A stretch of 62,039 nt of DNA from an uncultured Porphyromonadaceae bacterium (lineage in GTDB: Bacteria; Bacteroidota; Bacteroidia; Bacteroidales; Muribaculaceae). The stretch covers positions 1 through 62,039 of the forward strand of contig CANRWW010000015.1 in NCBI GenBank assembly GCA_947643665.1. Reading direction: 5' to 3'. Below are positions 166-15,147 of this stretch, piece after piece. The notes below the pieces were generated by a model. The model saw only the letters and a list, made by a program, of their open reading frames with translations, made no database searches and was not told the DNA's origin. Every line of letters starts with the position of its first letter. Position 1 is the first letter of the stretch. The position numbers and the translations under genes are program-made.

Positions 166-194
166 TTGTTAATGTAAAAAAATATATACCTTTG
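166..194 (+). promoter_or_regulatory. Bacteroidetes-type promoter of cassette 1
   Basis: TTG at 166-168 and TACCTTTG at 187-194 match the -33/-7 consensus of the Bacteroidetes primary sigma factor with normal spacing. The element lies 63 bases before the peptide start codon at 257. Confidence 0.7.
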
Positions 195-256: not shown

Positions 257-631
257 ATGAAATTGATAGTGATAAAAAATGTTCTTTTGTGCACTACATT
301 TTTAACAGTCTTGTTTGTGGGTATAAATCTTCAACACGTTGATAACGAGTATTCGCCTGCAGTCATGGCAAATGTAGATGCCTTATCGACTCCTGAGGGA
401 GAAGATGGGGGGGTAGAAACTTTTTATAATCGTCACGAAGGTTTTTGTGATTTCTATGTCAAAGCTAATGCCACTGTTACTATATTAGGATTGGGAGTTT
501 TTCAAGCAGATGCTAATGGATTAGTGAGAGTCTCGGGACAATTAGCGTGTAGTAGTGGAGGGGTTTTTACTTGCCGACCAATAGAGTGTTACGATATTTA
601 TCAATTGTTATCTGTTTCAGAGAGGGATTAA
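257..631 (+). CDS. NVEALA-like secreted cysteine peptide, cassette 1
   Basis: The 124-residue product begins with a basic N-terminus and a hydrophobic stretch (about residues 8-26). It then has the block VMANVDALSTPEGE, which resembles the NVEALA motif (Pfam NVEALA family) that marks small Bacteroidetes exported proteins. The mature part has four cysteines in the pattern C-x33-C-x7-C-x4-C, the last three in ACSSGGVFTCRPIEC. The same spacing occurs in the cassette 2 peptide, so it is conserved rather than accidental. No enzyme motif is visible. The stop (629-631) lies two bases before the ATG of the propeller lipoprotein, so the two are probably co-translated. The role is unknown; export and disulphide formation in the envelope is inferred from the leader and cysteines. 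Confidence 0.8.
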   Translation: MKLIVIKNVLLCTTFLTVLFVGINLQHVDNEYSPAVMANVDALSTPEGEDGGVETFYNRHEGFCDFYVKANATVTILGLGVFQADANGLVRVSGQLACSSGGVFTCRPIECYDIYQLLSVSERD

Positions 632-633
632 AG

Positions 634-1773
634 ATGAGTTCTTATGTAAAGAAATTTGTTTACTTCTTTTTGATATTGCTTACTGGTTGTTCAGCTTCGG
701 AAAGCAATAGCGGTGAGAATGTAATCAGTGTAAAGGTTGATGAATTTTCTCCGGTCAAAGACTTCTTTGACGGCTATAAATTTGTGGTATTGGAAACTAC
801 AGATGAAAGCTTAGTCTCAAATGAATCAATATTCAGAACAAGTGACAGGTACATAATCTCATACTCTCCGAACAGTGGGTTCGTTATTTTCGATAATGAG
901 GGAAAGTATCTGAACTCATTTAATCATACCGGCGAAGGTCCCGATGAATATGTGGGATTAACGGATTTTTATATAAAAAATGAAACGATATATGCCGTTG
1001 CTGGATTCTTTAAAAAAATTTTGGAATATGGAGTCATTGATGGTGAGTGTCTGGCGGTTCATCCTATTGATGGAGAATATGTCTATGCATCGCCTCTTGC
1101 CGATGAGACTATAGTTTTAGGAGCGGCATATAATAGTTCCACATTATATAATTTCGCGATCTTCGACCTGAGTTCAGACACTACCCTAAAGGTGTTTGCG
1201 CCATACAACAACCGGGCATCCTTAATCTTAGGTAATTTTAATTCTTTTGTTGGAGCAAACACCTCAGATGGAACAGTGTACGGGGTATTACCTTATAATG
1301 ATAACTTGTATGCCATCACCTCTGATACATGTGAGGTTTGCGAGACTTATGCCTTTAATACATCCTATAAACTACCTGATATTTCGCCGGAGGATTTACA
1401 GGTATATGAAACCTGGGAGAAAGTGCGATTTGAAAGAATGGTTCAGAGGCTTCTCAGTTTTTATAAAATGCCTTCAGGCGTATGTTACCAGGCATTCGAA
1501 ATAATGTCTGAATATGGTCTTATTCCAATGATTTGCAGGTATGATTCAGATAAGAAAGGGGCAGAAACACTTAGGATGAATGCCGAACTTTTCGATGAGT
1601 TTCCATTCTTATACGGATCTCCGTTTGAATTTCGGAACGAATATTGCATTACGGCGATTAATGCAGAATTTGCCTTGAATACAGCGAGCAAATTCGGTCT
1701 GGATATATTTTCCGGTTATGATTTGACCGAGGAGTCAAACCCTGTGATATTTTATCATCATTTCAAGGATTAA
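634..1773 (+). CDS. 6-bladed beta-propeller lipoprotein, cassette 1
   Basis: The 379-residue product has a lipoprotein signal with lipobox LLTGC. The start at 634 was chosen because it gives a clean signal peptide directly after the peptide stop; the frame is also open upstream to a TTG at 571, inside the peptide gene. The body matches the Bacteroidetes 6-bladed beta-propeller family (Pfam DUF5128-type): the signature GEGPDEY followed by the LTDFY strand, repeated aromatic beta strands, and the conserved C-terminus EESNPVIFYHH. Proteins of this family are surface or periplasmic lipoproteins of unknown ligand. Its place between an exported peptide and a thioredoxin-like lipoprotein suggests it binds or handles the peptide, which is inference. 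It is the paralogue of the genes at 2995-4128 and 6149-7294. Confidence 0.8.
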   Translation: MSSYVKKFVYFFLILLTGCSASESNSGENVISVKVDEFSPVKDFFDGYKFVVLETTDESLVSNESIFRTSDRYIISYSPNSGFVIFDNEGKYLNSFNHTGEGPDEYVGLTDFYIKNETIYAVAGFFKKILEYGVIDGECLAVHPIDGEYVYASPLADETIVLGAAYNSSTLYNFAIFDLSSDTTLKVFAPYNNRASLILGNFNSFVGANTSDGTVYGVLPYNDNLYAITSDTCEVCETYAFNTSYKLPDISPEDLQVYETWEKVRFERMVQRLLSFYKMPSGVCYQAFEIMSEYGLIPMICRYDSDKKGAETLRMNAELFDEFPFLYGSPFEFRNEYCITAINAEFALNTASKFGLDIFSGYDLTEESNPVIFYHHFKD

Positions 1774-1824
1774 GGATATGTCTAATCTGAGTAGCAGTTT
1801 TTTAGTATTCATAATCTTTTTGAT

Positions 1825-2389
1825 ATGAAAAACATTTTCATTGCATTACTGATTTGTTCTCATCTGTTTACATTTGTTTCATGTGCGTGGCTTGAGAATA
1901 AGAACGAAGAGCGGCGCCAAAGATCCGAGGCTGAATCAATAGTCAATTCATGGTTAGGGAAAGTCATATCAATAGACACAACTGTCGGATTTATTACAGA
2001 AAAGGGTGATTCCATAGATGCTGACATGCCGGATGCAGATTTTAGGTTGATACGATATTGGCGGGGATGATTGCACGTCGTGTCGCATGCATCTACACAA
2101 GTATAACGAAGCGCTAAGAACCTTGTCAGACAGTGCTGGAACCGAGGTAGATTTCCTTTGTATAGTTTGCCCCAACAATTTAGATGAATTGAGGCGTATT
2201 AAAAAAACTGAAAATCGCAGTAACCTAAAGATTTTAGTAGACACTCGCGACAGCCTCAACCGGTTGAACAGCCTCCCTGAGGTTGATGGCTTACGGACAT
2301 TTCTTGTCGACCGCAACAATCAAGTTCTCGGAGTCGGCGATCCGGCGGTCAATCCTCAGATAATGCGGCTCTACACCTCCATCCGATAA
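1825..2389 (+). pseudogene. broken thioredoxin-like/DUF1573 lipoprotein, cassette 1
   Basis: Residues 1-81 match the N-terminus of the intact copy at 4175-5089 (signal with lipobox FVSC, then the blocks VNSWLGK and VGFITEKGDS), but the frame ends at TGA 2068-2070. Directly after, in another frame, the match resumes with DCTSCRMHLHKYNEALRTLS and runs to MRLYTSI, where TAA (2387-2389) stops it. Comparison with copy 2 shows that two bases are missing near 2056: adding two restores Y-V-G-G-D-D-C. The C-terminal DUF1573 domain (about 100 residues in copies 2 and 3) is absent. The CxxC motif survives only in the shifted frame. The gene is therefore both frameshifted and truncated. Confidence 0.85.
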
Positions 2390-2406
2390 ACCGAAGATAT
2401 ATGGTT

Positions 2407-2460
2407 GTGACAATCGTCATAACCTGCACGGCGTCATATCCGTTGCAGTTCACGAAGTTT
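2407..2460 (+). pseudogene. remnant of an O-antigen-ligase-like gene
   Basis: Read in frame from 2407 this short stretch gives TCTASYPLQFTKF, against TCIASYPLQFVEF in the ligase-like gene of cassette 3 (9014-9054). Over the first 30 aligned bases (from 2422 and 9014) 25 are identical, mostly with third-position differences. It sits just downstream of the truncated cassette 1 Trx-DUF1573 gene. This suggests one deletion removed the DUF1573 domain and most of a ligase gene that once followed it, as still seen in cassette 3. Confidence 0.6.
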
Positions 2461-2526
2461 TGCACTTCAGTTTGGAATCTTCAAACCTACGCAAACTATT
2501 TTTTTGAATAATCTCCACTCTTAAAT

Positions 2527-2557
2527 TTTGTAAATAAAGATTATATACTTACCTTTA
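2527..2557 (+). promoter_or_regulatory. promoter of cassette 2
   Basis: TTTG at 2527-2530 and TACCTTTA at 2550-2557. The surrounding bases closely resemble the cassette 3 promoter at 5282-5313: both have TTAAATTTTGT, then GATTATAT, then CTTA before the -7 box. This supports common descent of the whole cassette including its promoter. Confidence 0.65.
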
Positions 2558-2623
2558 CAACAATTAATCAGGATCACTAAATTATATAGATGATCGGAGA
2601 TATTCTTAACAACCTTAAATCAA

Positions 2624-2998
2624 ATGAAAAAGTCTTTCTTCTTAACTGTGGCTGTGTCCCTTGGTGTCATCGGCTATCTATGCTACGAGCTACAATCTCC
2701 CAAATCAGAACCATTAAATCCTGCCGTTTTAGCAAATATTAATGCTCTTACGGAAGCAGAGGGATAAGATGGTGGAGGGTTGGACTGTTCTTACGACAGA
2801 GAGACAAACGAGTGCTACATTTATGTAGGTATAAAAGGAAGCGTAGAATTGTTTGGATTCGGAGTACTGTATGCAGGTGCAGACGGGTATGTTAGAGTAA
2901 AAGCTGAAGTTATATGTAAATCAGGAGGGAACAGCACTTGTACACCTTTCGAATGCTTTCAATTATATTCTCTAATAAAAGATTCTGAGAGATCATGA
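2624..2998 (+). pseudogene. NVEALA-like secreted cysteine peptide, cassette 2, with in-frame stop
   Basis: From ATG 2624 the frame encodes a signal segment (MKKSFFLTVAVSLGVIGYL) and the block VLANINALTEAEG. It then meets TAA at 2765-2767, exactly where cassette 1 has GAA in the sequence E-G-E-D-G-G. After the stop the same frame continues D-G-G-G and the conserved cysteine domain to TGA 2996-2998 (C-x33-C-x7-C-x4-C, including ICKSGGNSTCTPFEC). One G-to-T change would explain the break. Re-initiation at TTG 2780 would give a 72-residue leaderless product. Stop and propeller start overlap as ATGA, so the downstream gene normally depends on translation through this one. An upstream reading error cannot be excluded. 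Confidence 0.8.
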
Positions 2999-4128
2999 AA
3001 TTCATTTCATTTCAGGCAATTGCGAGTTGCTTAATTCTTTGCGCAGCTTGTAGTAATATTGATTCTTCCCGTGGGAGAATCAATATAGATGTCGAAACAT
3101 TTTCTCCAGTCACAGACTTCTTTGACGAGGTCAGGTATGTAATATTGGAGACAAACGACAGCTCAATTATCGGAGAACGAGTTAAGTTTCGACTTGCCTC
3201 AGACTATAACAGAATTGTCGCCTTCTCAGATCAAACGGGTTTTACCGTGTTCGATGGTAATGGGAAATGGATCAATACTTTCGATCATCAGGGGGAGGGT
3301 CCCGAAGAATACATAGGTATCACAGACTTTTACCTCTTTAAAGAGGAATTGTATGCGGTATCATGTTATCAAAGTAAGATTTTAGTTTACTCAATTGATA
3401 CCGGAGAATGTAACCGCGTCATAAATATGGCTGATAATTATAGCGATGCAACATGGCTAAACGACAACTATATAGCTCTATGTTCAGCCTACAACAATAC
3501 GTCGCTTTATAATCTTGCAATACTCAATGCTTCCGAAGGTAAAATAGAAAAACTGTTTTTGCCATATAAATTCTTCGACTCCTCTACAGACAGCAACTAT
3601 AACGCTTTTGTCGGACGAGATGTGGAAGGTGTCTATGTAACACTTCCGTATAATACCGATTTGTATTATCTTACATCCGATACTTGTGTAGTCGCAGAGA
3701 CATATTGTTTCAACTCTCCCGACAAACTTCCGGAGGTTAAAATGGAGGATGTGAATAAGCGTGAAATGGAAGAACCCACCCGTACAACCCGGAGCGTAAA
3801 TTGGTTGGGATACTTCTGTAAGCCATCCGCTGACATGTGCTATCAGGCGTTTGAACTGCTGACAGATTATGGCAATAGGACATATATCAGCAAATACAAC
3901 CCTATTTCAGGCGACAGCAGAACTTTTTGCATAGACACGACTGATGAATTTCCTTATCTCATATGGAAGCCTGTGCTGATGAACGATGACTATTACATCT
4001 CTGCTCCAAAAGCAGAATTTATATTGAGTTACGAGAATATATCCGGGAGAACTACATTTACAGACGCTGGTCTTACACATGATTCAAATCCCGTGATATT
4101 CTTTTACCACCTCAACCATTCGTGGTGA
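2995..4128 (+). CDS. 6-bladed beta-propeller lipoprotein, cassette 2
   Basis: The 377-residue product has lipobox LCAAC near residue 19 and the family signature GEGPEEYIGITDFYL. It shares blocks with the cassette 1 propeller throughout: FSPVTDFFDE, LETNDSS, YNNTSLYNLAI, LPYNTDLY, MCYQAFELL and the C-terminal SNPVIFFYHL. The start overlaps the peptide stop by ATGA, implying translational coupling. The peptide gene in front carries a nonsense codon, so expression of this propeller may be lowered. Function is unknown; it is expected to be a lipid-anchored envelope protein. Confidence 0.8.
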   Translation: MKFISFQAIASCLILCAACSNIDSSRGRINIDVETFSPVTDFFDEVRYVILETNDSSIIGERVKFRLASDYNRIVAFSDQTGFTVFDGNGKWINTFDHQGEGPEEYIGITDFYLFKEELYAVSCYQSKILVYSIDTGECNRVINMADNYSDATWLNDNYIALCSAYNNTSLYNLAILNASEGKIEKLFLPYKFFDSSTDSNYNAFVGRDVEGVYVTLPYNTDLYYLTSDTCVVAETYCFNSPDKLPEVKMEDVNKREMEEPTRTTRSVNWLGYFCKPSADMCYQAFELLTDYGNRTYISKYNPISGDSRTFCIDTTDEFPYLIWKPVLMNDDYYISAPKAEFILSYENISGRTTFTDAGLTHDSNPVIFFYHLNHSW

Positions 4129-4174
4129 TTAAATAATCACATTTTCAGAAACAACGTTTCCGGATTCTATATCA

Positions 4175-5089
4175 ATGAAAAATAGTTATATCGCGATAGT
4201 TATCTACTTGATTTTCTGCTCTTTTATTTCATGCGGAGGGATTGATACAAAGTTTAAGGTCGGTCATGACAACGCGGATGTGGAAGCTGTTGTTAACTCA
4301 TGGTTTGGAAAAGTTATAACTATTGACCCTACCGTTGGCTTTATAACTACAAGAGGAGATTCTACAGATATTGAATTGCCGGATGCAGAATATAAATTGA
4401 TCAGATATGTTGATGGAGGTGGTTGCACATCATGTCGCTTGCATTTACATAAGTATAACGATGCATTGAGAACATTGTCAGATAGCGCTGGAGAAGAGGT
4501 GGGACTTCTTTGTATAGTTTGTCCAAAAAAATTTGGTGAGTTAAAGCGTATTCTAAAAATTGAAAATCGTGGCAATCTTCCGGTTCTGGTTGACATGAAC
4601 GACAGTCTCAACCGTCTGAACGGCTTCCCTGAAGCTGACGGGCTGCGCACGTTTCTTGTTGACCGCGACAACCATGTGCTCGGAGTGGGCGATCCGGCGG
4701 TAAATCCTCAGGTAATGCGGCTGTATACCTCTATTCTCACCAGCGATTCCGTGAGATTGCAACGTCGGCGTATGCCGAAAACTTCTCTCGTGATGTATCC
4801 TGCGAAAATGAATATCGGGCGTATAGTTGCGGGCGATTCCGCGGTGGGAGAATTTCATCTGGGCAATTACGGCAATGAGCCTTTCGTGCTCGACGCGCTG
4901 TTACCGTCGTGCGAGTGTGTCACGGCAGTTCTCTCCTCCGATACCATCGCTCCCCATAGCGAGGCCATTCTGCGTGTTGTATTCCGAGAGGATGAACCGA
5001 TCGGGAGTTTTGAGCGCACTGTAGAGGTCGTAGGCAACATCGACCCAGACTTTGCCCTCACCATCACCGGCACAGTCGTCGAAAAGTAG
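4175..5089 (+). CDS. thioredoxin-like/DUF1573 lipoprotein, cassette 2
   Basis: The 304-residue lipoprotein has lipobox FISC near residue 20, then a thioredoxin-like region with GGGCTSCR (CxxC at residues 84 and 87) and a strand-helix pattern through LLCIVCP and VGDPAVNPQV. It ends with a DUF1573 domain (about residues 205-300; blocks GNYGNEPFVL, LPSCECVTAV, FEREDEP-like and ITGTVVEK). DUF1573 is an immunoglobulin-like fold common in Bacteroidetes envelope proteins. A periplasmic disulphide role on the cysteine peptides is plausible from context, not shown. Base composition changes inside the gene: the first 400 bases are AT-rich, the rest clearly GC-richer. This fits a recombination junction near 4600. 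Confidence 0.8.
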   Translation: MKNSYIAIVIYLIFCSFISCGGIDTKFKVGHDNADVEAVVNSWFGKVITIDPTVGFITTRGDSTDIELPDAEYKLIRYVDGGGCTSCRLHLHKYNDALRTLSDSAGEEVGLLCIVCPKKFGELKRILKIENRGNLPVLVDMNDSLNRLNGFPEADGLRTFLVDRDNHVLGVGDPAVNPQVMRLYTSILTSDSVRLQRRRMPKTSLVMYPAKMNIGRIVAGDSAVGEFHLGNYGNEPFVLDALLPSCECVTAVLSSDTIAPHSEAILRVVFREDEPIGSFERTVEVVGNIDPDFALTITGTVVEK

Positions 5090-5281
5090 AAGATGCCACA
5101 AATGACGCCGAACTCCCCTGCAAGAAGCGTGGGAAACTTTCGGTGCATCTTTTCGCTCGAATAGTATGACGACTATTGTCTGCCATTTTACAGAAATATC
5201 CGTGTGCTTTTTGAATTAAAATCTCATAAACAACCCAATAAACGAATGAACCCGAGTCTTTTTTGATTTTTTACTATTAAA

Positions 5282-5313
5282 TTTTGTGAATCTGGATTAT
5301 ATGCTTATCTTTG
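5282..5313 (+). promoter_or_regulatory. promoter of cassette 3
   Basis: TTTTG at 5282-5286 and TATCTTTG at 5306-5313, with the shared core ATTTTGTGAAT and GATTATAT seen also upstream of cassette 2. The preceding 190 bases (5090-5281) show no gene. Confidence 0.7.
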
Positions 5314-5374
5314 CAGCGTATACTTAATCTAAGTATTGAAATATTAGTCAAAATTAGCAAACATTAGTTATGTT

Positions 5375-5767
5375 TTGGGAGATAAAGTTAGGGTAATTAG
5401 CTGCTTGTTGGTAGTAATTACTCTTATTGGAGTAGGTACATATTATCAAATACCGGTTAGTTCAACAGAAGACCTTCGATTGAAAAATATTCTTGCCGTA
5501 TCTGAATTAGAGGATGGTGAAAAAGGTTCTGATATTTTGGCTAAAGAAAAAATTGTCACTACAAAAGTGCTTGATGTGGATATTTATTTAGAACTCCAAC
5601 CAGATAACTCCTATAAAGAGGTTGTAAAGGGATATCATATACTTCAAGTAACATCATGTGAAGGAGAAGGATTGGTGAAATGTTATCCTGATATGGATTA
5701 TGATTATTGGCCTGTGGAGGGTTCGAGCTCAGATTTTAATGGGTTCGCAGGTAAAAAACGGAAATAA
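5375..5767 (+). CDS. NVEALA-like peptide 3a, start codon doubtful
   Basis: The frame encodes a signal-like segment (VRVISCLLVVITLIGVG), then LKNILAVSELEDGE, an NVEALA-like block, and near the end SCEGEGLVKCYP. This last block shares the C-x7-C motif with a GG/GEG centre seen in the other peptides. The only start in frame is TTG 5375. An ATG at 5370 lies in another frame and is followed by a run of four T; five T would join that ATG to this frame and give a normal leader. It is therefore either a TTG start or a one-base loss. The gene precedes a second peptide gene and the cassette 3 propeller. Confidence 0.6.
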   Translation: MGDKVRVISCLLVVITLIGVGTYYQIPVSSTEDLRLKNILAVSELEDGEKGSDILAKEKIVTTKVLDVDIYLELQPDNSYKEVVKGYHILQVTSCEGEGLVKCYPDMDYDYWPVEGSSSDFNGFAGKKRK

Positions 5768-5806
5768 ATATAAATTTAGGATTTCATTTAAATATTAGAT
5801 GATGTT

Positions 5807-6136
5807 ATGAACAAGATCATCAAGTCTTCTCTCGCTGTAATAATTTTGGTTTTTGTTTCTTTTTGGGGAATGTATTGCCATTCCGATATTATAGAGAAAA
5901 AATATAGAGATCAATATACTCTTGCGAATATGGAATCCCTGTCAGAAATAGAAAATATTGAAACTGGCATAGGCTTTAACGTTTCAGAGGTGACGGCTCA
6001 TACAGAACCGTATTTTTCAAATAATGGTAACGGAACAATTAGCATATACAATAAAACCACATATGAATGCAAAGGTGAAGGGCCAATAAACTGTCCCATG
6101 TATCCTAAATATGAATTTGTTGAAATGTTTCCATAA
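5807..6136 (+). CDS. NVEALA-like peptide 3b
   Basis: The 109-residue product has a hydrophobic N-terminal segment (about residues 6-24), then YTLANMESLSEIEN, a good NVEALA-type block, and a short mature region with ECKGEGPINC, the C-x7-C motif with central GEG also present in peptide 3a. It ends 12 bases before the propeller start at 6149. Cassette 3 thus carries two peptides where cassettes 1 and 2 carry one. Their bodies differ from the cassette 1 and 2 peptides except for leader and the C-x7-C motif, so the mature peptide is the variable part of the system. Confidence 0.75.
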   Translation: MNKIIKSSLAVIILVFVSFWGMYCHSDIIEKKYRDQYTLANMESLSEIENIETGIGFNVSEVTAHTEPYFSNNGNGTISIYNKTTYECKGEGPINCPMYPKYEFVEMFP

Positions 6137-6148
6137 AATTCTCTATGT

Positions 6149-7294
6149 ATGCGTAAAATTCAGCTTTTCTTATTCATAGTTTTTTGTTCGATTATTTCCG
6201 GTTGCTCATATAAACCTTCAGTTTCAGATGATGTAGTTCCCGGTGCAAAAATTAAACTTGTTTTTCAGGAAGGTGACCAGTCTCTTGTATTTGATTCCAT
6301 AGCGACCAGATGCGGACACTTTGTTCCAGAAACAACAGAAAACGCACTTTTAGGAAGTATACACAGAGTAGTGAAATGCGATTCGTTATATTTTATATTT
6401 GATGACCTGAAACAGGTTATGGCGTTTACTGAGACAGGTAAACACCGGTTCACAATACATAATATTGGTGAAGGTCCGGGTGAATATATAACTTTATGGG
6501 ATATCGCGATTGATTATACCCGTAAAAAATTGGTTCTGTTAGTTGATCAAAAGATATTGTACTATAATCTTGATGGTACATTTACCGGTCATGAAACGAC
6601 ACTGCCAGATTATGCCCATGAGATTATTGTCTCAGGACAAACGGAATTCCTTACCCTTAGCACATATACCAACAATGAGCTAAGTAAGAACTCAATCCGT
6701 ACGATAAATCAGAACGATGGAACTTCTTTTGATTACATGAAACCATTGCACGAATATGCACCATCCTGCTTCTTTTTAGGAAGCAATCTTACTTCTTCGG
6801 TGGATGGAACAGTATATTTCACCCGTAAATTCGATTCAAATATATATACCTTGCATGAAGATTCATATTCTATTGAATATCAGATTGATTGGGGAGAATG
6901 GGAATTTATTCCTAAAGAAGATGTGCAATATGAATGCAGCGATATTTTTAAAGAAGGTCTGATGGATAAGAAAGTATATGCTGTATATGATTTTCAAAGA
7001 GGTGATTCAATTATAACATTCAGAACCAATTACCCCGGTTTTTATTACGGGTCACTGAATACAAGGAGTATCTACTATATATTGCAGCCAATCGATGGGG
7101 AGTTCAATCTCCCGCTTGTAAATGCAATGCCGGTAGGTGGAACCGACGGTATGATAATGTTTGATTTGAGCCAATTCTATCTAGAAAAGCAACTTGAGTC
7201 TATTCCAACGTATGGCAACGAGAAGTTTCGGGAAGTATTTGACAGTATGTCGAAGGATTCCAATCCGCTGCTGATTTTCTATAAACTCAAATGA
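6149..7294 (+). CDS. 6-bladed beta-propeller lipoprotein, cassette 3
   Basis: The 381-residue product has lipobox IISGC near residue 19 and the family signature IGEGPGEYITLWDI. The repeated strands (YFIFDDLKQVMAF, LLVDQKILYYNLDG) and the conserved C-terminal block KDSNPLLIFYKLK place it in the Bacteroidetes 6-bladed beta-propeller family. It is more diverged from the other two propellers than they are from each other, matching the different peptides before it. This suggests peptide and propeller co-vary. The stop overlaps the next start by four bases (7291-7294). Confidence 0.8.
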   Translation: MRKIQLFLFIVFCSIISGCSYKPSVSDDVVPGAKIKLVFQEGDQSLVFDSIATRCGHFVPETTENALLGSIHRVVKCDSLYFIFDDLKQVMAFTETGKHRFTIHNIGEGPGEYITLWDIAIDYTRKKLVLLVDQKILYYNLDGTFTGHETTLPDYAHEIIVSGQTEFLTLSTYTNNELSKNSIRTINQNDGTSFDYMKPLHEYAPSCFFLGSNLTSSVDGTVYFTRKFDSNIYTLHEDSYSIEYQIDWGEWEFIPKEDVQYECSDIFKEGLMDKKVYAVYDFQRGDSIITFRTNYPGFYYGSLNTRSIYYILQPIDGEFNLPLVNAMPVGGTDGMIMFDLSQFYLEKQLESIPTYGNEKFREVFDSMSKDSNPLLIFYKLK

Positions 7295-8190
7295 CCCGAT
7301 ATCTGTCCGTCATATATATTATTCTGATAATTTTGTCAGGAATACTTACCTGCGGGTGTGACAGACAGCCTCATTCTGATGTCGAGGCTGTTGTTGATCG
7401 GTGGATCGGTAAAACTATAAAATTTCCGGGGGATTCTATCGGAGCATTTGTCGTAGGGCGTGACACAGTGGCGTCTCCGGTTTTCGATGCCCGTTTTACA
7501 GTTGTCAGATATGTGGATTCCGTTGGTTGCACATCATGTAAATTACGGCTTCCGGAATACCGTTCGCTAATAGAGCGGTTCAATATGCTCAGCAGTAACA
7601 GGGTTGACTATTTGTTGGTAGTCACCCCATGTGATATAAGGGAATTTCGTGAGATATTAAAGCGAGATAATGTAAAATATCCAGTTTTGCTTGACGAAGA
7701 CGCATCGTTCAAGAAGTTGAATGAGCTGGAGGATAGTGATGTATTCCATATGATGCTATTGGATAAGGATCGTAAGGTATTGGCAATCGGCAATCCCGCT
7801 ATTAGTCCGAAGGTAATGAAGCTGTATGTCGATTTACTCACTGAAAATGCAGTGTCCGGAGGCAATTATATCAAAATAACGACTATAAACTCAGAAGTCA
7901 GAAACCATGATTTTGGTGATGTCTGTGTTGGCACAGTGGCTCATCATCGCTTTCATATCACTAATACTGGCAACGAATACTTTTTTGCAGACACAGTAGT
8001 TTCTTCATGCGACTGCACACGCGCTATGATTCATCCCAGAAATATAGCTCCCGGTGAAATTGCTGAAGTAACCGTCGCGTTTCATGCTGATGAACCGACA
8101 GGTTTCTTTGAACGCGAGGTGGACGTATTTGGAAATATTCCATCCGGTAAATTCACCCTCACCCTCACCGGCACAGTCGTCGGGAAATAG
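7291..8190 (+). CDS. thioredoxin-like/DUF1573 lipoprotein, cassette 3
   Basis: The 299-residue product has a lipoprotein signal ending ILTCGC and a thioredoxin-like region with VGCTSCKL (CxxC at residues 80 and 83) followed by LLVVTP and AIGNPAISPKV. A C-terminal DUF1573 domain (about 200-299) contains SSCDCT and ends LTGTVVGK. The last bases of the gene, 8167-8182, are identical to 5066-5081 of the cassette 2 copy and both are followed by TAGAAGAT. The 5' halves are much more different. It is translationally coupled to the propeller gene and followed after 13 bases by the ligase-like gene. Confidence 0.8.
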   Translation: MTRYLSVIYIILIILSGILTCGCDRQPHSDVEAVVDRWIGKTIKFPGDSIGAFVVGRDTVASPVFDARFTVVRYVDSVGCTSCKLRLPEYRSLIERFNMLSSNRVDYLLVVTPCDIREFREILKRDNVKYPVLLDEDASFKKLNELEDSDVFHMMLLDKDRKVLAIGNPAISPKVMKLYVDLLTENAVSGGNYIKITTINSEVRNHDFGDVCVGTVAHHRFHITNTGNEYFFADTVVSSCDCTRAMIHPRNIAPGEIAEVTVAFHADEPTGFFEREVDVFGNIPSGKFTLTLTGTVVGK

Positions 8191-8203
8191 AAGATAGATT
8201 TTA

Positions 8204-9556
8204 ATGGATTGGAGAGTCGGGTATAAACAACTCGGAAGTCTGCTTGCGCGGATTGAGTGGGGGCAAGTATTGGAGGCTGGAGTGCTTGCGGTAGGACTTG
8301 TGGAGGGAATTTGGGGCGCGTTGCAACTTTTCGGGTTTGTCGATAGCGGTCACCCGCGCTACCCGGTGACGGGGTCGTTCTACAACCCCGGTCCTTTCGG
8401 GTGTATGCTTGGATGCGTGTTTCCGGTGGCGGTCAGCATATATCTGCGCCCCCGGGCGAAATGGCTGAAATGGAGCGCTGGGGTGTTTCTGATGCTCTGC
8501 GCATTGCTGCTGCCGGGAGGAATGAGCCGCACTGGATGGATAGCAGCTCTGGCAGGCTCGGCGGTGACATTGACCGGCATTTATCGGGAAAAAATCTTTT
8601 CGATAAACAGAAAATATCTGGTTGCGACAATCGCCGTTACCGGCATCGGTTTATGCGCCGCAGGGTATGGAGCCTACCATATAAAAAAAGATTCAGCCGA
8701 TGGGAGGGTGCTGATGTGGAAAGTGGCAGCTCTGGCTGTATCCCGCTCGCCGCACCAAGGGGTAGGATGGGATTATGTTGAAGGAGCCTATGGAGATGCG
8801 CAGGAGGAGTATTTCCGCGATGGTATGGACAGTGGAAACGAAGCGATGGTCGCCGGCACTCCGGTGTATGTTTTCAATGAATATCTTCAGCTGGCTATCG
8901 CTTTCGGGTGGCTCTGCGGGGTTATGTTTTTGCTGTCATTGCTGCTTGCATGCGGGCTTTATATGCGCCGCAGGCTGTATGGCATGGCTGGAACGACGGT
9001 AGGGATAGCCGTGACATGCATAGCATCATATCCCTTGCAGTTCGTAGAGTTCCGATGGTTCATCGGTCTTACGGTGATTTGCGCTTTCATGCTTTTGCGC
9101 AGGCTACCGCTCCGGTTGTCGGCAGTAGCGGCATCAACCGCAGCAATGATTCTCTTTTTCTGCAACAAACCCGATTCCGACATAAATGCCGAGTTCCGTA
9201 AAGCCCACGCGACATATCAGAATGGAAATTTCCGCGAGGCTATCGACAGCTTCAACGAACTTCTGCCAAAAACCTCTGATCCTATGCCGTTAAACCTTAT
9301 CGGCAAATGCTATCAGTCGCTCGGGATGCCGGATTCGGCAGAACACTATTTCATCCGATCCACCCATAGGCTACCCAACCGCTTCTATCCTCATTATCTC
9401 CTGATGAAGCTCTACGCCGAAAATCCGGCAGACAGCGCCAAAATGCGCCGCGAGGCTACCTATCTACTTTCCACAGAGCCAAAGACCCCCTCCAAAGCCA
9501 TTGATGAGATGCGCGAGGAAGCAACGCACCTTATTTCATCAATCTGTCGAAGATAA
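8204..9556 (+). CDS. O-antigen-ligase-like membrane protein with TPR tail
   Basis: The 450-residue product has about eight hydrophobic segments and the motif PVTGSFYNPGPFG, typical of the Bacteroidetes branch of the O-antigen ligase/polymerase (Wzy_C) family. It also has the long periplasmic region and SYPLQFVEFRW before the last membrane segments. Residues from about 325 form TPR-like helices (ATYQNGNFREAIDSFNELL, KCYQSLGMPDSAEHYFI). Wzy_C proteins transfer lipid-linked glycans to lipid A, polymers or proteins. Family members usually carry several more N-terminal membrane segments, so this one may be shortened at its 5' end. Its place directly after the Trx-DUF1573 gene suggests it belongs to the cassette, perhaps modifying an envelope product; that is inference. 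Confidence 0.7.
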   Translation: MDWRVGYKQLGSLLARIEWGQVLEAGVLAVGLVEGIWGALQLFGFVDSGHPRYPVTGSFYNPGPFGCMLGCVFPVAVSIYLRPRAKWLKWSAGVFLMLCALLLPGGMSRTGWIAALAGSAVTLTGIYREKIFSINRKYLVATIAVTGIGLCAAGYGAYHIKKDSADGRVLMWKVAALAVSRSPHQGVGWDYVEGAYGDAQEEYFRDGMDSGNEAMVAGTPVYVFNEYLQLAIAFGWLCGVMFLLSLLLACGLYMRRRLYGMAGTTVGIAVTCIASYPLQFVEFRWFIGLTVICAFMLLRRLPLRLSAVAASTAAMILFFCNKPDSDINAEFRKAHATYQNGNFREAIDSFNELLPKTSDPMPLNLIGKCYQSLGMPDSAEHYFIRSTHRLPNRFYPHYLLMKLYAENPADSAKMRREATYLLSTEPKTPSKAIDEMREEATHLISSICRR

Positions 9557-9645: not shown

Positions 9646-10725
9646 ATGAGACACCTGTCGACAATAACATTTCTTACAACGGCATCGTTGCTTCTTGCGG
9701 CATGCACGGAGAAAAACGAAGAGCAACGCGCCGAGAAGAATGAGGTGGCAATGATAGGTGTGCAGTCGAATGCCGCCGAAGTGACGGTGATGAGACTGGA
9801 GCCGCGCATGTTCACCCACGAAGTGGTGAGCAATGGCAAAATTGCAGCTGGAGCCTATGCCGACCTGCGCTTTACCACCTCCGGTGCGCCGATAGAAAAA
9901 ATAATGGTGAAAAACGGCCAAAGGGTCAGAAAAGGTGATGTGCTTGCGGTGCTTGACCGCTTCCAGCTGACAAACAATGCCACCAATGCGCGCAACAATC
10001 TGGAGCGCGCGCGGCTTGACCTTGCCGACGCGCTCATCGGGCAGGGCTACGATCCGGCTATGCAGGAGACGGTACCGGAAGAGGTGATGGCTCTTAGCCG
10101 CCTGCGCAGTGGAGTGGCGCAAGCCGAAATTAATCTTGCCGAGGCCGAGAAGGCACTCCACGAAGCCACGATGCGCGCCCCTTTCGACGGCGTGGTGGCC
10201 AACATGTTTCAGAAAGCATGCAATTATCCCGACGGCGCACAGCCGTTTTGCCGCATACTCTCCACCTCGGGAATGGAAGTGGATTTCACCGTGCTGGAAA
10301 GTGAGCTGCCGTTGATACATATCGGCGATGCGGTGAAGGTTTCGCCATATGCCTCCGACGGCACTTTCAACGGCACCGTAAGTGCTGTGAACCCCATAGT
10401 GGAGTCTGACGGTATGGTGAAGGTGACGGCCACCGTGGGGAGCGGCACCGGACTTTTCGATGGCATGAATGTACAGGTGAGCGTGAAGCGCGAGGTAGAG
10501 CAGGCACTGGTGGTGCCCAAGAGCTCCGTGGTGCTACGCAGCGGCGGGCGGCAGGTGGTGTTCACCCACCACGATGGGAAAGCGCTTTGGAACTATGTGA
10601 CCACCTCGCTTGAGAATATGAACGAATATGTGGTTACCGACGGCCTTCAGGCAGGAGCCGAAGTGATAACTACCGGCAATCTGAACCTCGCACATGAAGC
10701 CCCCGTAAAAATTATCAGCGACTGA
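9646..10725 (+). CDS. RND efflux periplasmic adaptor (membrane fusion protein)
   Basis: The 359-residue product starts with lipoprotein signal LLLAACTEKNE and has the HlyD/AcrA layout. A lipoyl half-motif (GAPIEKIMVKNGQRVRKGDV) is followed by a coiled-coil hairpin (about residues 105-180, NNLERARLDL and AEINLAEAEKAL), then the second lipoyl half (MRAPFDGVVANM), then beta-barrel and membrane-proximal domains (ALVVPKSSVVLR). It links the inner-membrane pump to the outer-membrane channel. Its stop and the next start overlap (TGATG at 10723-10727). Confidence 0.9.
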   Translation: MRHLSTITFLTTASLLLAACTEKNEEQRAEKNEVAMIGVQSNAAEVTVMRLEPRMFTHEVVSNGKIAAGAYADLRFTTSGAPIEKIMVKNGQRVRKGDVLAVLDRFQLTNNATNARNNLERARLDLADALIGQGYDPAMQETVPEEVMALSRLRSGVAQAEINLAEAEKALHEATMRAPFDGVVANMFQKACNYPDGAQPFCRILSTSGMEVDFTVLESELPLIHIGDAVKVSPYASDGTFNGTVSAVNPIVESDGMVKVTATVGSGTGLFDGMNVQVSVKREVEQALVVPKSSVVLRSGGRQVVFTHHDGKALWNYVTTSLENMNEYVVTDGLQAGAEVITTGNLNLAHEAPVKIISD

Positions 10726-13715
10726 TGGTAAAATTTCTTCTCAACCGTCCCATAGCTGTGATCATGGCCTTTCTCGCGGCCGTTATAATAGGGTGTGTCA
10801 CTTATTTCACCCTGCCGGTATCGCTGCTGCCGACAATAGACATACCCAACATCACGGTGCAGGTAGCAGGAGGCAACAACAGCGCACGGGAGCTGGAGAA
10901 CACCGTGGTAGGTCCGCTGCGCCGACAGTTGCTGCAGGTCGGCGGCCTCAGCGAAATAAGGAGCGAGACCCGCGACGGCATCGGACTGCTGTGCCTGTAC
11001 TTCGACTACGGGGTGAGCACCGACCTCGCATTCATTGAGGTGAACGAGAAAATCGATGCCGCCATGAGCTCGCTGCCGCGCGATATAAGCCGGCCGAAGG
11101 CCATAAAGGCTTCGGCTACCGACATACCTGTACTCTATCTCAACATGACACTGCGCGACGACAGCGGCGACTTCCTGCAGATGGCAGAAGTGGCCGAGAA
11201 TGTGGTGCGCCGACGCATAGAGCAAATGCCGGAAATTGCCATGGCCGACATCACCGGGAGCCCGCTACGGCAACTTCGCATAGTGCCCGACCGGGGGAAG
11301 ATGGAATCGGTATCCATTTCGGTCGCCGACATTGAGCGGGCGCTGAACGACAACAATGCCGAAGCGGGGTCAATGACAGTGCGCGACGGATATTATGAAT
11401 ACCGCATCAACATCTCCACACAGTTGCGCACCGCAGAAGATGTGAAAAACATTTTCATCAGAAAGGCCGATCGCCTGATGCAGCTCGGAGATTTCTGCAA
11501 GGTGGAGGTTGTGGACGACAATCCGCTGGGCTACTCCTATTTTAACGGCAAACGCGCCGTGACGCTCGCCATCATAAAGCAGAGCGAGGAAAACATGGAC
11601 AAGCTGAAAAGCACATTAAAAGAGACCACCGACCATTTCGAGAATCTTTACCCACAGATAGAGTTCACTCAGAGCCGCAACCAGACCGAGCTGCTTGACT
11701 ACACCATCTCTAACCTCGTGCAGAACCTCATTTTCGGATTCATATTGGTGTTCGCCCTCACAGCCTTGTTCATGGGCGAGATACGCTCTTCGATGGTAAT
11801 CGGCATCAGCATCATGGTATCAGTGGTCATCACATTCCTGCTGTTCTACCTATTCGGGGTGTCAATCAACATCATATCGCTCTCGGGACTTATCCTGGCA
11901 GTGGGCATGATGATTGACAACTCGGTGATCGTGACCGAAAATATAATGCAGTACCGTCAGCGTGGCCTGCCGCTGACTGAGGCCTGCGACAGGGGCACAT
12001 CGGAGATGATCACTCCCATGCTTTCCTCGTCGCTCACCACAGTAGCGGTGTTCATACCTTTGGTATTCGTCAGCGGCATTGCCGGAGCCATATTCTTCGA
12101 CCAGGCGTTCGCCATCACCGCCGGACTGGCCGTGAGCTATATCACCGGCATAATGCTGCTGCCGGTAATATACCGTCTGTTTTTCAGCCGGTCGACGGCC
12201 AAGGTGAAAACCGGCAACGCCAACAGGGTGCTTGCCAAAGGATATACCGCCGTGATGGACTGGTGTTTCGCTCACAAGACTGTCTGCCTGGTGTTCACGG
12301 CGCTCGCTCTGCCGGCCTGCATGCTGCTCTTTGGAATACTTCCGGTGGAGCGCATGCCACAAATTGACCGCGACGACATGGTGGCTCGCGTGGAATGGAA
12401 CGAGAACATCAACATTGACGAGAATGCCCGGAGGGTGAAGGAGGCAGTGGACGCCCTTGACTCCACGAAGCTCACAGCCAACTCGGCCTATATCGGCGTG
12501 CAGGATTATCTGCTTGACGCCGGCAACGAACTTTCCCCCTACGAAGCCGAAATATATCTCCAGGCCACCGACCCGCGCGAACTGCCGGGACTGAAAGCCA
12601 GAGTGCGGGAATGGATGGCCGGCCGGTTCCCGCAGGCCACTGTGGAGTTCATGGGCGCAGAAAATATCTTTGAGAAAATATTTTCTACAGACGAGCCCGA
12701 CCTTGAAGCACGGCTGCACCGCACCGATAAATCGCCCGACGCCGACATTGACGCGCTGCTGGCTCTGGAAAAAGGGATAACAACCGACCCCACACCGATG
12801 CATGACCGCCTGGACATAGTGGTAGACCATGAGAAACTGCAGCTATATCACATAAGTTACAGCGAGGTGGCGCATGCCCTCCGCACAGCTTTCAATGCCA
12901 ACAATGCCGGTGTACTTCGCTCATATCAGCAATATTTGCCCATAACCATCGCCGGCAACAACGTTACGGTAGAAAACGTGCTCACCCACACGATGGTGCG
13001 CGATGTACCGCTGTCGTATCTTGTGCATATAAAACAAGCCAAGGACCTCAAAAGTATCACCGCCGCCTCCGACGGCGAATTCATTCCTCTTGATTTCCAC
13101 GATGTGGAGGATCCGAAGCAAAAAATGGAGGAGATAAAAGCAGCAGTAGAACGCACCCCTGAATGGAAGGTGAGCTTCACCGGAAACATCTTCTCTAACA
13201 TGGAGCTGATGAAAGAGCTCGCAGTGATTCTGATGATATCGGTGCTGATGATGTATTTCATTCTCTGCGCACAGTTCGGCAGTTTTGTGCAGCCACTCAT
13301 AGTGCTAGCCGAGATTCCTGTTGACACTGCCTTCGCACTGATTTCACTATGGCTATGCGGCCACTCGCTTAACCTCATGTCGGCAATAGGCATAATAGTG
13401 ACATGCGGCATCGTAGTGAACGACTCCATCCTCAAACTTGATGCCATCAACAATCTACGTTCCCGGGGGATGCCACTGGCAGAAGCCATACACACTGCCG
13501 GACTACGCCGCCTGCGTCCCATTATAATGACTTCGCTGACCACAATCCTTGCCATGGTGCCGATGCTCTTCACCAACGACATGGGCTCGGAGCTTCAGCA
13601 GCCGCTCGCCATAGCCATGATCGGCTCAATGGTGGTGGGCACACTGGTCAGCATATTCGTCATACCGATCGTTTACTGGTTAATCTATCACCGCAATGAA
13701 AAAACTACTGCTTAA
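10725..13715 (+). CDS. RND efflux permease 1 (AcrB-like)
   Basis: The 996-residue product has the full AcrB/HAE-type layout: TM1, a large porter loop, TM2-7, a second porter loop and TM8-12. TM4 carries VGMMIDNSVIVTENI, where AcrB has two adjacent Asp residues; here there is one Asp followed by Asn. The TM10 lysine of AcrB is also not evident (CGIVVNDSILKLD). The proton relay therefore differs from classical multidrug pumps. It overlaps the outer-membrane factor gene by 20 bases. Substrate cannot be told from sequence. It is a different subfamily from permease 2 in the same operon. Confidence 0.9.
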   Translation: MVKFLLNRPIAVIMAFLAAVIIGCVTYFTLPVSLLPTIDIPNITVQVAGGNNSARELENTVVGPLRRQLLQVGGLSEIRSETRDGIGLLCLYFDYGVSTDLAFIEVNEKIDAAMSSLPRDISRPKAIKASATDIPVLYLNMTLRDDSGDFLQMAEVAENVVRRRIEQMPEIAMADITGSPLRQLRIVPDRGKMESVSISVADIERALNDNNAEAGSMTVRDGYYEYRINISTQLRTAEDVKNIFIRKADRLMQLGDFCKVEVVDDNPLGYSYFNGKRAVTLAIIKQSEENMDKLKSTLKETTDHFENLYPQIEFTQSRNQTELLDYTISNLVQNLIFGFILVFALTALFMGEIRSSMVIGISIMVSVVITFLLFYLFGVSINIISLSGLILAVGMMIDNSVIVTENIMQYRQRGLPLTEACDRGTSEMITPMLSSSLTTVAVFIPLVFVSGIAGAIFFDQAFAITAGLAVSYITGIMLLPVIYRLFFSRSTAKVKTGNANRVLAKGYTAVMDWCFAHKTVCLVFTALALPACMLLFGILPVERMPQIDRDDMVARVEWNENINIDENARRVKEAVDALDSTKLTANSAYIGVQDYLLDAGNELSPYEAEIYLQATDPRELPGLKARVREWMAGRFPQATVEFMGAENIFEKIFSTDEPDLEARLHRTDKSPDADIDALLALEKGITTDPTPMHDRLDIVVDHEKLQLYHISYSEVAHALRTAFNANNAGVLRSYQQYLPITIAGNNVTVENVLTHTMVRDVPLSYLVHIKQAKDLKSITAASDGEFIPLDFHDVEDPKQKMEEIKAAVERTPEWKVSFTGNIFSNMELMKELAVILMISVLMMYFILCAQFGSFVQPLIVLAEIPVDTAFALISLWLCGHSLNLMSAIGIIVTCGIVVNDSILKLDAINNLRSRGMPLAEAIHTAGLRRLRPIIMTSLTTILAMVPMLFTNDMGSELQQPLAIAMIGSMVVGTLVSIFVIPIVYWLIYHRNEKTTA

Positions 13716-15147
13716 CATACTGATTCTGTTCCCCCTTACGCTATATTCCCAAAAGGTCAACCTCACGCTGCAACGCGCCATCTCAATAGCCAATGACAGC
13801 TCGCTGCAGGCATTCAGGGTGAAGAACATGTACCAGTCGTACTACTGGCAATATCGCTCGTTCAAAGCCGAGAGACTGCCGTCGCTATCGCTGCAACTCA
13901 CCCCGGCCTCATACAACCGCTATATCCGTCAGCGATACGACTCACAGGAAAATATTGACGTTTATCGCGCCCAGCAGATGTACAGCGCCTCGGGAATGCT
14001 CAACATCACGCAAAATTTCGACCTCACAGGCGGTACGTTCTATCTGGAAACCGGGGTGGAGTATATGCGTAATTTCGGCGACTACACCGGCAACCAGTTC
14101 TCGTCGGTGCCTGTCAGAATAGGCTACCGGCAGAACCTCATCGGTTTCAACCCATTCAAATGGGACAAGAAAATAGAACCGCTGAAATTCGAGAAAGCCA
14201 AGAAAGAACTTATCTACAACATGGAGATGGTGGCGGAAAACACCGTGGAACTGTTCTTCGCCCTTGCCCTCGCGCAGGAGGAACTGCACCTGGCAGAAAA
14301 CAATCTCGCGTCGTGCGACACACTGTTCATCACCGGAGAAAGGCGCTTCAGAATACAGTCAATCTCAGAAGCCGACCTTCTGACATTGAAACTTGACCGT
14401 GTGAACGCACAAAACACCCTTGACAACGCACGTATATCGCTGAAAAGAGCGCGTTCTGGGCTTGCCACGTTTCTTGGTCTGAGTCAGAACGCCGATATTT
14501 CGGTAGTACTCCCGGCTGTGCCCCTTGCAAGCGAGATCCAAGCCGACATAGCCGTGGAACAAGCCCGCGCCAACAACCCGACACTGCTACAGCACAGGCA
14601 GAGCATACTTGAAGCGCAACGCACGCTGAGCCGCACCAAGATGGAGTCTCGGTTCAACGCCAATTTTAACGCCTCAGTGGGTTTCAACCAGGTGGCCCCC
14701 ACATTCAGCGAGGCATACCGTCATCCGCTAAGGCAGGATCTCGTGTCGTTTTCCGTCAGCATACCCCTTGTGGACTGGGGAGTGCGCAAAGGACGTGTGA
14801 ACATGGCACAGAACGATCTTAATGTGGCCGAGATTTCGGCGCGTCAGGAAGAACTTACAGTAGAGGAAGATGTGATAATGACCGTAAGCGACTATAACAT
14901 CCAACAGCGCCTGGTGACCTCTGCCATGGAAGCACTTGACCTCGCCGATATAGCATACGAGCGCACCAAACAGCGCTTCATGATCGGGAAAAGCGACATC
15001 AACTCGCTCACCCTCTCACAGTCAAGACAGCAGAACGCCAACACCAACTATATCCGCGCACTCCACAACTACTGGCGCAGCTATTACAGGCTGAGAAAAC
15101 TCACCCTCTACGATTTTGACTTTAACAAGATGATTGATATTGAATGA
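13696..15147 (+). CDS. TolC-family outer membrane efflux factor
   Basis: The 483-residue product has a signal peptide (LLLNILILFPLTLYSQ) followed by two long alpha-helical repeats typical of the outer membrane efflux protein family (NLTLQRAISIANDSS; LDLADIAYERTKQRFMIG). It forms the outer-membrane exit channel for the two permeases. Start at 13696 overlaps the end of permease 1, and its own end overlaps permease 2 by four bases, so all four genes are one tight operon. Confidence 0.9.
   Translation: MKKLLLNILILFPLTLYSQKVNLTLQRAISIANDSSLQAFRVKNMYQSYYWQYRSFKAERLPSLSLQLTPASYNRYIRQRYDSQENIDVYRAQQMYSASGMLNITQNFDLTGGTFYLETGVEYMRNFGDYTGNQFSSVPVRIGYRQNLIGFNPFKWDKKIEPLKFEKAKKELIYNMEMVAENTVELFFALALAQEELHLAENNLASCDTLFITGERRFRIQSISEADLLTLKLDRVNAQNTLDNARISLKRARSGLATFLGLSQNADISVVLPAVPLASEIQADIAVEQARANNPTLLQHRQSILEAQRTLSRTKMESRFNANFNASVGFNQVAPTFSEAYRHPLRQDLVSFSVSIPLVDWGVRKGRVNMAQNDLNVAEISARQEELTVEEDVIMTVSDYNIQQRLVTSAMEALDLADIAYERTKQRFMIGKSDINSLTLSQSRQQNANTNYIRALHNYWRSYYRLRKLTLYDFDFNKMIDIE

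Follow-up and report, generated by a model that had tools for sequence, protein, structure and literature searches.

Tandem peptide, beta-propeller and thioredoxin-like cassettes in Bacteroidales as a candidate system of exchangeable disulfide mini-proteins

The 62,039-nucleotide contig CANRWW010000015.1 of an uncultured Porphyromonadaceae bacterium placed in the Muribaculaceae (assembly GCA_947643665.1), hereafter the window, carries three successive cassettes in which a gene for a short cysteine-containing peptide is followed by genes for a beta-propeller lipoprotein and for a lipoprotein joining a thioredoxin-like (Trx) part to a DUF1573 domain. Comparison of these cassettes with loci from other Bacteroidales revealed that related peptide cores tend to adjoin related propellers across genera, suggesting matched pairs, and that the peptides, on sequence grounds, are mosaics in which the core changes near an NxEAL motif behind a common leader. 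We give about an even chance to the reading that the cassettes make up an exported, polymorphic system of disulfide mini-proteins with a swappable cargo of core plus propeller, competition being its most likely use.

Leaders, cores and their propellers

The peptides share a leader of roughly 40 residues, in which the motif N-[VI]-E-A-L-[AST]-x-x-E stands about 20 residues past a hydrophobic stretch, followed by a variable core of 28 to 117 residues with at least two cysteines. Across 97 distinct peptides the motif lay at a median of 37 residues from the start and 20 past the hydrophobic stretch, with N present in 97%, I or V in 86%, E in 90%, A in 94%, L in 87%, A, S or T in 93% and the final E in 78%. 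The ALA within the motif resembles a signal peptidase I site, where the leader may be cleaved, although this is a long way from the hydrophobic stretch. Each of the 94 cores that reach 18 residues holds two or more cysteines, their number being even in 64 (68% compared to 49% expected), and the median net charge of these cores was −2. The pattern C-x3-G-x3-C, a looser form of a motif common to the window peptides (see below), occurred in 13 of 81 cores compared to a mean of 2.7 in shuffled cores.

The leader motif is also that of the NVEALA family (PF14055), to which Pfam assigns no function. All seven peptides of relatives that were compared matched PF14055 at an expect value (E) of up to 0.01, five of them above its cut-off of 27 bits, and further genomes hold matches as well. 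In contrast, the window peptides stay below the cut-off, peptide gene 2 scoring 19 bits and peptide 3b 16.4, with no match for peptides 1 and 3a. The NVEALA-like block described in an earlier note on this DNA therefore holds for the leader motif, through a broader leader profile that recovered all four window peptides (two of the four were in its building set; peptide 3a at E 0.004), and not for PF14055 itself, which was abandoned as a sole probe because it scored the window's own peptides in this way and found matches in only 7 of 148 genomes of the order.

Several genomes, including those of Parabacteroides acidifaciens and Bacteroides ihuae, hold peptide genes that have the leader and as much as about 200 nt of upstream DNA in common and diverge past the EAL codons, a break between leader and core that the earlier note had missed. 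In 18 same-genome pairs from nine genomes, selected for a leader identity of at least 0.75, identity averaged 0.88 to 0.93 along the main part of the leader, dropped to 0.76 within the final 15 nt of the leader and was 0.42 to 0.56 beyond, where peptides of different genomes gave a baseline of 0.45 with the same aligner; core similarity was at most 0.20 in 16 of the 18. Over the peptides in general, leader likeness was 0.373 within genomes compared to 0.205 across genera, and that of cores 0.127 compared to 0.106. An inverted repeat starting with GGAGT was seen about 170 to 210 nt before the peptide gene in P. acidifaciens and B. ihuae (L080 and L101/L089), and inverted repeats were no general feature of the upstream stretches (4 of 116, compared to 0 to 2 in five shuffles).

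Core similarity followed propeller similarity in 81 core-propeller pairs from 31 genomes, with a Pearson r of 0.634 across genomes and 0.526 across genera. When propellers were shuffled within genomes, the correlation across genera was 0.132 ± 0.065, and none of 3000 shuffles reached the observed value. The pairs were drawn from 120 peptides, leaving out duplicates and those that had an unclear motif, had a core shorter than 18 residues or lacked, within 900 bp, a propeller of 220 residues or more. Leader and propeller gave r 0.003, and Trx and propeller r 0.069, which equals its null (66 pairs with a Trx gene within 4 kb). Trx and leader correlated at 0.373, a value that may arise merely because both follow the genome. 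On these figures a cassette seems to comprise two blocks, one of leader and Trx and the other of core and propeller.

Inspection of individual matches gave a similar picture. A core match of at least 0.25 in another genus existed for 32 cores, and the partner's propeller was the best of 60 to 80 in 17 cases and among the top three in 25. These cores, which count reciprocal matches twice, correspond to 19 distinct core pairs, and propeller similarity was at least 0.14 in 14 of them, compared to a cross-genus median of 0.033 for all pairs. Window propeller 3 is nearest to the propeller of locus L048 (27% identity), whose peptide carries the similar CEGKGHIEC, and the paired propellers closest to propeller 1 are those of L056 and L156, two loci with cores that match peptide 1. 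The co-variation of peptides and propellers on which the earlier note had made its proposal depend was thus found for related cores of different genera, and not beyond cores that are recognisably related.

Companions of the cassettes and their distribution

As the earlier note had expected, the three families co-occur in other genomes. All three were present at 31 of 41 first-round Trx loci (peptide at 34, propeller at 34), a set that includes the window and the profile sources and helped build the profiles, and at 31 of 34 further loci scored with profiles fixed beforehand; the later loci were found through Trx, so that this test bears on the peptide and the propeller. At 13 further loci anchored on PF14055, peptide and propeller were found together at 11, Trx at 4 and all three families at 3. 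None of 20 control stretches of 17 kb, for which we chose arbitrary positions in long contigs from 11 of the genomes, held a peptide, propeller or Trx gene, nor a gene for a signal peptidase or for the Wzy_C-TPR membrane protein described below, and one held a transglutaminase-like gene. In the first sets 52 of 71 peptides were followed by a same-strand propeller within 400 bp. The basic unit is a peptide gene and then its propeller gene, with the Trx gene before them, after them or missing.

Matches to DUF1573 only were not taken as wide loci (G016, G033, G080, G132, one of G136, G322 and G171), and G243:C5, G243:C16 and G245:C14, omitted at first, were later entered as PF14055-anchored loci. 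A relaxed iteration of the propeller profile drifted into Trx proteins and was replaced by a stricter one.

Among the Trx proteins, CxxC and a Pro are kept in 99 to 100% of 84 sequences. A crude scan, which picked the wrong Cys for window propeller 2, found a lipobox in 116 of 142 propellers, and at least two acidic residues stand in the six positions after the Cys in 18 of these 116 and in 10 of 59 Trx proteins. An acidic surface export signal of lipoproteins is described in the available part of one study (PMC5080379), and an excerpt of a review states that most Bacteroidales lipoproteins reach the surface. Of the 135 propellers that reach 300 residues, 39 had no peptide called within 900 bp, although at least one of these 39, that of L041, has an upstream leader after all. 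Runs of six and seven propellers with one peptide gene were observed (L136:7159-15231 and L102). The Trx-DUF1573 genes of several relatives have one in-frame stop (e.g. G366:C108, G055:C38, G117:C1), two such genes in L083 break between the Trx and DUF1573 parts, and at the same place in B. ihuae (L089:5531-7832) two insertion-element-like genes were noticed by eye.

The earlier model lacked a hub of further genes, the Wzy_C-TPR protein at 8204-9556 having been left out of it, and an RND operon follows that gene. The window protein resembles O-antigen ligases in its membrane domain, which matches PF04932 (38.9 bits, cut-off 31.7, E 9.7e-10), and differs from them in its C-terminal TPR part and in the motif H[NSQ]x9Gxx[GTY], which we take to be that of the ligase. 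Phe stands in the His position of this motif in 25 of 25 aligned Wzy_C-TPR members, making it unlikely that these proteins are ordinary O-antigen ligases.

The 26 cassette loci with a Wzy_C-TPR gene included 16 with a signal peptidase gene, 19 with a transglutaminase-like gene and 15 with RND parts, compared to 6, 15 and 6, respectively, of the 61 cassette loci that lack it (Fisher p 1e-6, 3e-5 and 6e-6 over these 87 loci, from which L112, a weak PF14055 match holding none of the families, is left out). A Pfam search with 10 neighbour proteins of relatives assigned four to signal peptidase I (PF10502, E 2e-26 or better) and gave two transglutaminase (PF01841) matches, one above and one below the cut-off. 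Ser and Lys, presumably the catalytic dyad, are invariant in 21 of 21 signal peptidases of relatives, as are one Cys and one His in 28 of 28 transglutaminase-like proteins. When 15 Wzy_C-TPR loci were examined, chosen mostly where the hub had not yet been seen, a signal peptidase lay in the same stretch at 11 of the 12 with a strong Wzy_C-TPR match, also where the cassettes sit elsewhere in the genome, and at none of the three with a weak one.

Hub and Trx also go together at the level of genomes. Across 361 genomes of the family, at least 28 hold the Trx domain, at least 29 a strong match to Wzy_C-TPR (E no higher than 1e-90, the threshold being placed at a gap in the list) and at least 25 both (p 3e-31), with three Trx only and four hub only. 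The Trx count follows removal of G057, G132 and G599 from 31 genomes. At most six candidates per genome were scored for Trx in the family, eight in the phylum and four for Wzy_C-TPR, so that all these counts are lower bounds, and the genomes are related, so that the p values are nominal. Because both models were partly built from genomes later counted, we also left out the eight source genomes of the Wzy_C-TPR model (of the remaining 353 genomes, 17 have both, 3 Trx only, 4 the hub only and 329 neither) and then the sources of both models (13, 2, 4 and 329). Of the four genomes with a strong Wzy_C-TPR match and no Trx match, two have peptide and propeller, in one the contig ends early, and in one only transglutaminase-like genes adjoin.

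When 296 genomes from across the phylum were sampled, at least three, all of the order, had the Trx domain. Other matches were mainly to the DUF1573 part, and outside the order no match in this sample covered the CxxC region. Carriers of peptide and Trx include Parabacteroides and Bacteroides species and a Tannerellaceae bin. Trx genes without a peptide or propeller nearby were found in Phocaeicola faecalis and Parabacteroides sp. PF5-6. Among eight loci of named genomes scored with the fixed profiles, L174 and L177 had Trx without either, and L172 and L173 had peptide and Trx without a propeller. This patchy spread fits exchange or loss.

The array in the window

Contig C15, which the window covers completely, belongs to a genome of 2.6 Mb and 68 contigs. 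Analysis of its reading frames and profile matches confirmed the order of peptide, propeller and Trx gene claimed by the earlier note, repeated three times across 257-8190 (Table 1). The copies themselves are less complete than described: only cassette 3, with two peptide genes, is intact, Trx gene 1 being frameshifted and shortened and peptide gene 2 interrupted by a stop. Trx gene 1 consists of the open reading frames 1825-2070 and 2087-2389, shows a gap of 2 nt immediately 5' of the CTSC codons when compared with copy 2, and stops short of DUF1573. The shared CTSC and DUF1573 (PF07610) consequently apply to Trx 2 and 3, the latter domain with 51.9 and 74.2 bits (cut-off 26.1; E 8e-14 and 9e-21). 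Trx fold profiles (Redoxin, Thioredoxin_8 and AhpC-TSA) stayed below cut-off in copy 3 and had no match in copy 2.

Table 1. Features of the cassette array and its downstream flank in the window
Feature	Positions	Strand	Method
TACCTTTG, Bacteroidota-type −7-like box before cassette 1	187..194	+	pattern scan
Peptide 1; leader up to NVDALS, CSSGGVFTC in core; open frame	257..631	+	
Propeller lipoprotein 1, PF17170; open frame	634..1773	+	
Trx gene 1, broken; frame lost directly 5' of CTSC, DUF1573 half missing	1825..2389	+	
TACCTTTA, −7-like box before cassette 2	2550..2557	+	pattern scan
Peptide gene 2; in-frame TAA at 2765-2767 near leader/core junction	2624..2998	+	
Propeller lipoprotein 2, PF17170; open frame; 42% identity with propeller 1	2995..4128	+	
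Trx-DUF1573 lipoprotein 2; CTSC; open frame	4175..5089	+	
TATCTTTG, −7-like box before cassette 3	5306..5313	+	pattern scan
Peptide 3a; CEGEGLVKC core motif; weak leader match (E 0.004), start codon uncertain	5375..5767	+	
Peptide 3b; NMESLS leader, CKGEGPINC core	5807..6136	+	
Propeller lipoprotein 3, PF17170; open frame	6149..7294	+	
Trx-DUF1573 lipoprotein 3; CTSC; open frame	7291..8190	+	
Wzy_C-TPR membrane protein, hub member; Phe replaces ligase-motif His	8204..9556	+	
HlyD, RND, OEP, RND operon; candidate exporter, association statistical only	9646..18236	+	

Most of the sequence motifs on which the earlier note had relied were recovered. The pattern C-x2-[GE]-G-x3-C is common to all four peptide genes, and the propellers, matching PF17170 (DUF5128) with 84.2, 86.9 and 102.2 bits (cut-off 22.9; E 1e-23 to 4e-29), belong to a family described as six-bladed and carry GEGPxEY in three of three copies. 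Their common end was given as SNPxxxFY; SNP and FY are present, with a spacing of three residues in copies 2 and 3 and of two in copy 1. Overlaps of start and stop, stated for the array in general, occur at two junctions only (2995-2998 and 7291-7294). Related promoters are indicated by one TAnnTTTG/A box, which we take to be the Bacteroidota −7 motif, upstream of the first peptide gene in every cassette (at 187, 2550 and 5306), and similar short boxes also precede some other window genes.

Trx copies 1 and 2 are 77% identical over 99 residues (the second piece of copy 1), compared to about 42% for propellers 1 and 2 and likewise for their cores, indicating that the cargo changed faster than Trx or was exchanged. 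With Trx 1 and peptide gene 2 broken, and no Trx match in 12 other genomes of the genus (few candidates were scored per genome), the array might instead be a decaying remnant in which cassettes 1 and 2 do nothing. We consider this somewhat unlikely: all three propellers, Trx 2 and 3 and peptides 1, 3a and 3b retain open frames, and cassette 1 could draw on Trx 2 or 3 in trans. A search of the whole genome at E up to 1 gave no further propeller of this kind and no further complete Trx-DUF1573 gene. The contig starts directly upstream of peptide 1 (1-256), so that further cassettes or hub genes could lie beyond.

In the RND operon the HlyD, OEP and second RND genes were assigned by Pfam and the first RND gene by similarity. 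Elsewhere in the window (32969-36825), an LlaJI restriction endonuclease match barely above its cut-off (25.5 compared to 23.6 bits) stands beside a 717-residue frame.

Proposed mechanism, alternatives and known systems

We propose that the peptide crosses the inner membrane by Sec and would be cleaved near EAL(A) by a dedicated signal peptidase where one is present and otherwise by the general one, as probably in the window. Its disulfides would form with the help of the Trx protein, its own propeller would hold it in the periplasm, and exit would be via a pump of the RND-TolC type. Core and propeller would move as one exchangeable unit behind the resident leader, comparable to toxin and immunity gene in polymorphic toxins. 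Their most likely use would be in competition between related bacteria, the propeller acting as a cognate immunity protein or an escort, which is the weakest part of the proposal. A more specific version, a dedicated Bacteroidales secretion route (signal peptidase, His-less ligase-like Wzy_C-TPR protein, Trx and RND-TolC) for a large pool of exchangeable disulfide mini-proteins that are each neutralised or sensed by their own propeller, is possible, and we advance it tentatively. The earlier note's proposals that the propeller binds the peptide and that the cassettes belong to an undescribed envelope system are both supported as predictions from sequence comparison.

Several results weigh against an exported system of paired cargo. 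The rank correlation of core and propeller similarity across genera is 0.04, a value reached by 29 of 500 shuffles and also obtained in the first set, which confines the pairing signal to recognisable core families rather than spreading it over all pairs; r is 0.244 once the 20 most similar core pairs are removed, and propeller similarity was below 0.14 in 5 of the 19 distinct core matches. In the window, the best cross-genus core match of peptide 3b has an unrelated propeller (rank 79 of 79), and the nearest relative of propeller 1 outside the window (L164, 38% identity) has no called peptide before it. Trx, present at only 4 of the 13 PF14055-anchored loci, appears to be a looser companion, and RND parts were found at a minority of Trx loci outside the window (18 of 74, compared to 0 of 20 controls, p 0.008). 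The window holds no dedicated signal peptidase or transglutaminase gene, and its genome only general-looking ones. Finally, many membrane-active bacteriocins are not acidic, as the cores here are (median −2), and PADLOC gave no defence-system match for 10 proteins.

The weak rank correlation and the drop in r without the top pairs would also fit simple linkage, with peptide and propeller genes inherited together because they are adjacent and their products forming no physical pair. However, neither the nearby Trx protein nor the leader, which is part of the same gene as the core, tracks the propeller, although leaders are short and hence a less sensitive control, and we regard linkage by itself as unlikely. 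A second alternative, about which we are equally doubtful, is that the peptide serves as a secreted pheromone for which the propeller is the extracytoplasmic receptor, pairs corresponding to signalling groups. Core-propeller pairing and acidic, disulfide-rich cores are compatible with such a role, as are histidine kinase- and response regulator-like genes that gene starts, judged by eye, place between the peptide and the Trx gene at L093:5591-8512 and L094:1077-8602; in contrast, such genes were noticed in these two loci of one genus only, with no search aimed at them, and one genome may hold several different pairs and propeller-only runs. Coupling of the peptide to a glycan or surface polymer by Wzy_C-TPR, or its cross-linking by the transglutaminase-like protein, with the propeller as carrier, is very unlikely in our judgement. 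The Wzy_C match, the invariant Cys and His and the hub association speak for it; against it, Phe is found in place of the ligase-motif His, and display offers no clear reason for core-specific propellers.

Among known systems, bacteroidetocins are close to the exported cargo that we propose. They are, in the portion of the source available, exported cysteine peptides of Bacteroidales with a leader and a thiol oxidoreductase encoded at the locus, and Bacteroides are said there to be without general disulfide machinery (PMC6671954), with which a Trx protein beside cysteine-rich cores is in keeping. According to the same excerpt, they differ in a GG leader of 15 to 16 residues cut by an ABC transporter-peptidase and in having no obvious immunity gene, whereas the peptides described here have a hydrophobic leader of about 40 residues with another motif, an adjacent propeller and often a signal peptidase and Wzy_C-TPR. 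No ABC-peptidase was noticed at cassette loci, where no search was aimed at one.

Polymorphic toxins have a conserved N-terminal trafficking part and a neighbouring immunity gene. The cassettes show a similar layout, within the limits set by the rank correlation, in that a conserved N-terminus is followed by a variable C-terminus, which is matched to the partner encoded next to it. Change of the variable C-terminal cargo by recombination is a further likeness, as far as the available text on these toxins goes (PMC3482391). Unlike them, the cassettes have a disulfide mini-protein core in which no toxin domain was found, a beta-propeller partner and different export parts.

For the DUF5128/DUF4934 propellers (PF17170, PF16288) a relative of solved structure exists (4raa, profile match E 8e-12), and no described function or peptide partner was found in the literature. 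A literature search by titles and abstracts likewise gave no description of this system, of NVEALA/PF14055 or of partner roles for the propellers, so that the system in Bacteroidales is apparently undescribed. For Pfam families of common gut bacteria to which no function is assigned, the proposal offers a testable role. Should cores and propellers pair physically, the set of pairs in a genome would be an identity or weapon code, and, if the proposal is true, gut bacteria would share a combinatorial code of peptide recognition. The leader/core junction would mark where cargo is exchanged, and the His-less ligase-like protein and the RND link point to an export route for which the literature searched gives no description.

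A comparable set of genes appears to be present in Bacteroides thetaiotaomicron, where, in the part of the source available (PMC10434189), BT0662-BT0669 are annotated as including an O-antigen ligase, a propeller, signal peptidase I and an RND adaptor in one stretch; the comparison is of annotations alone. The rows for these genes give figures of 0.11 to 0.44 beside the expression values, and we made no use of the expression of BT0662-0664 under iron limitation.

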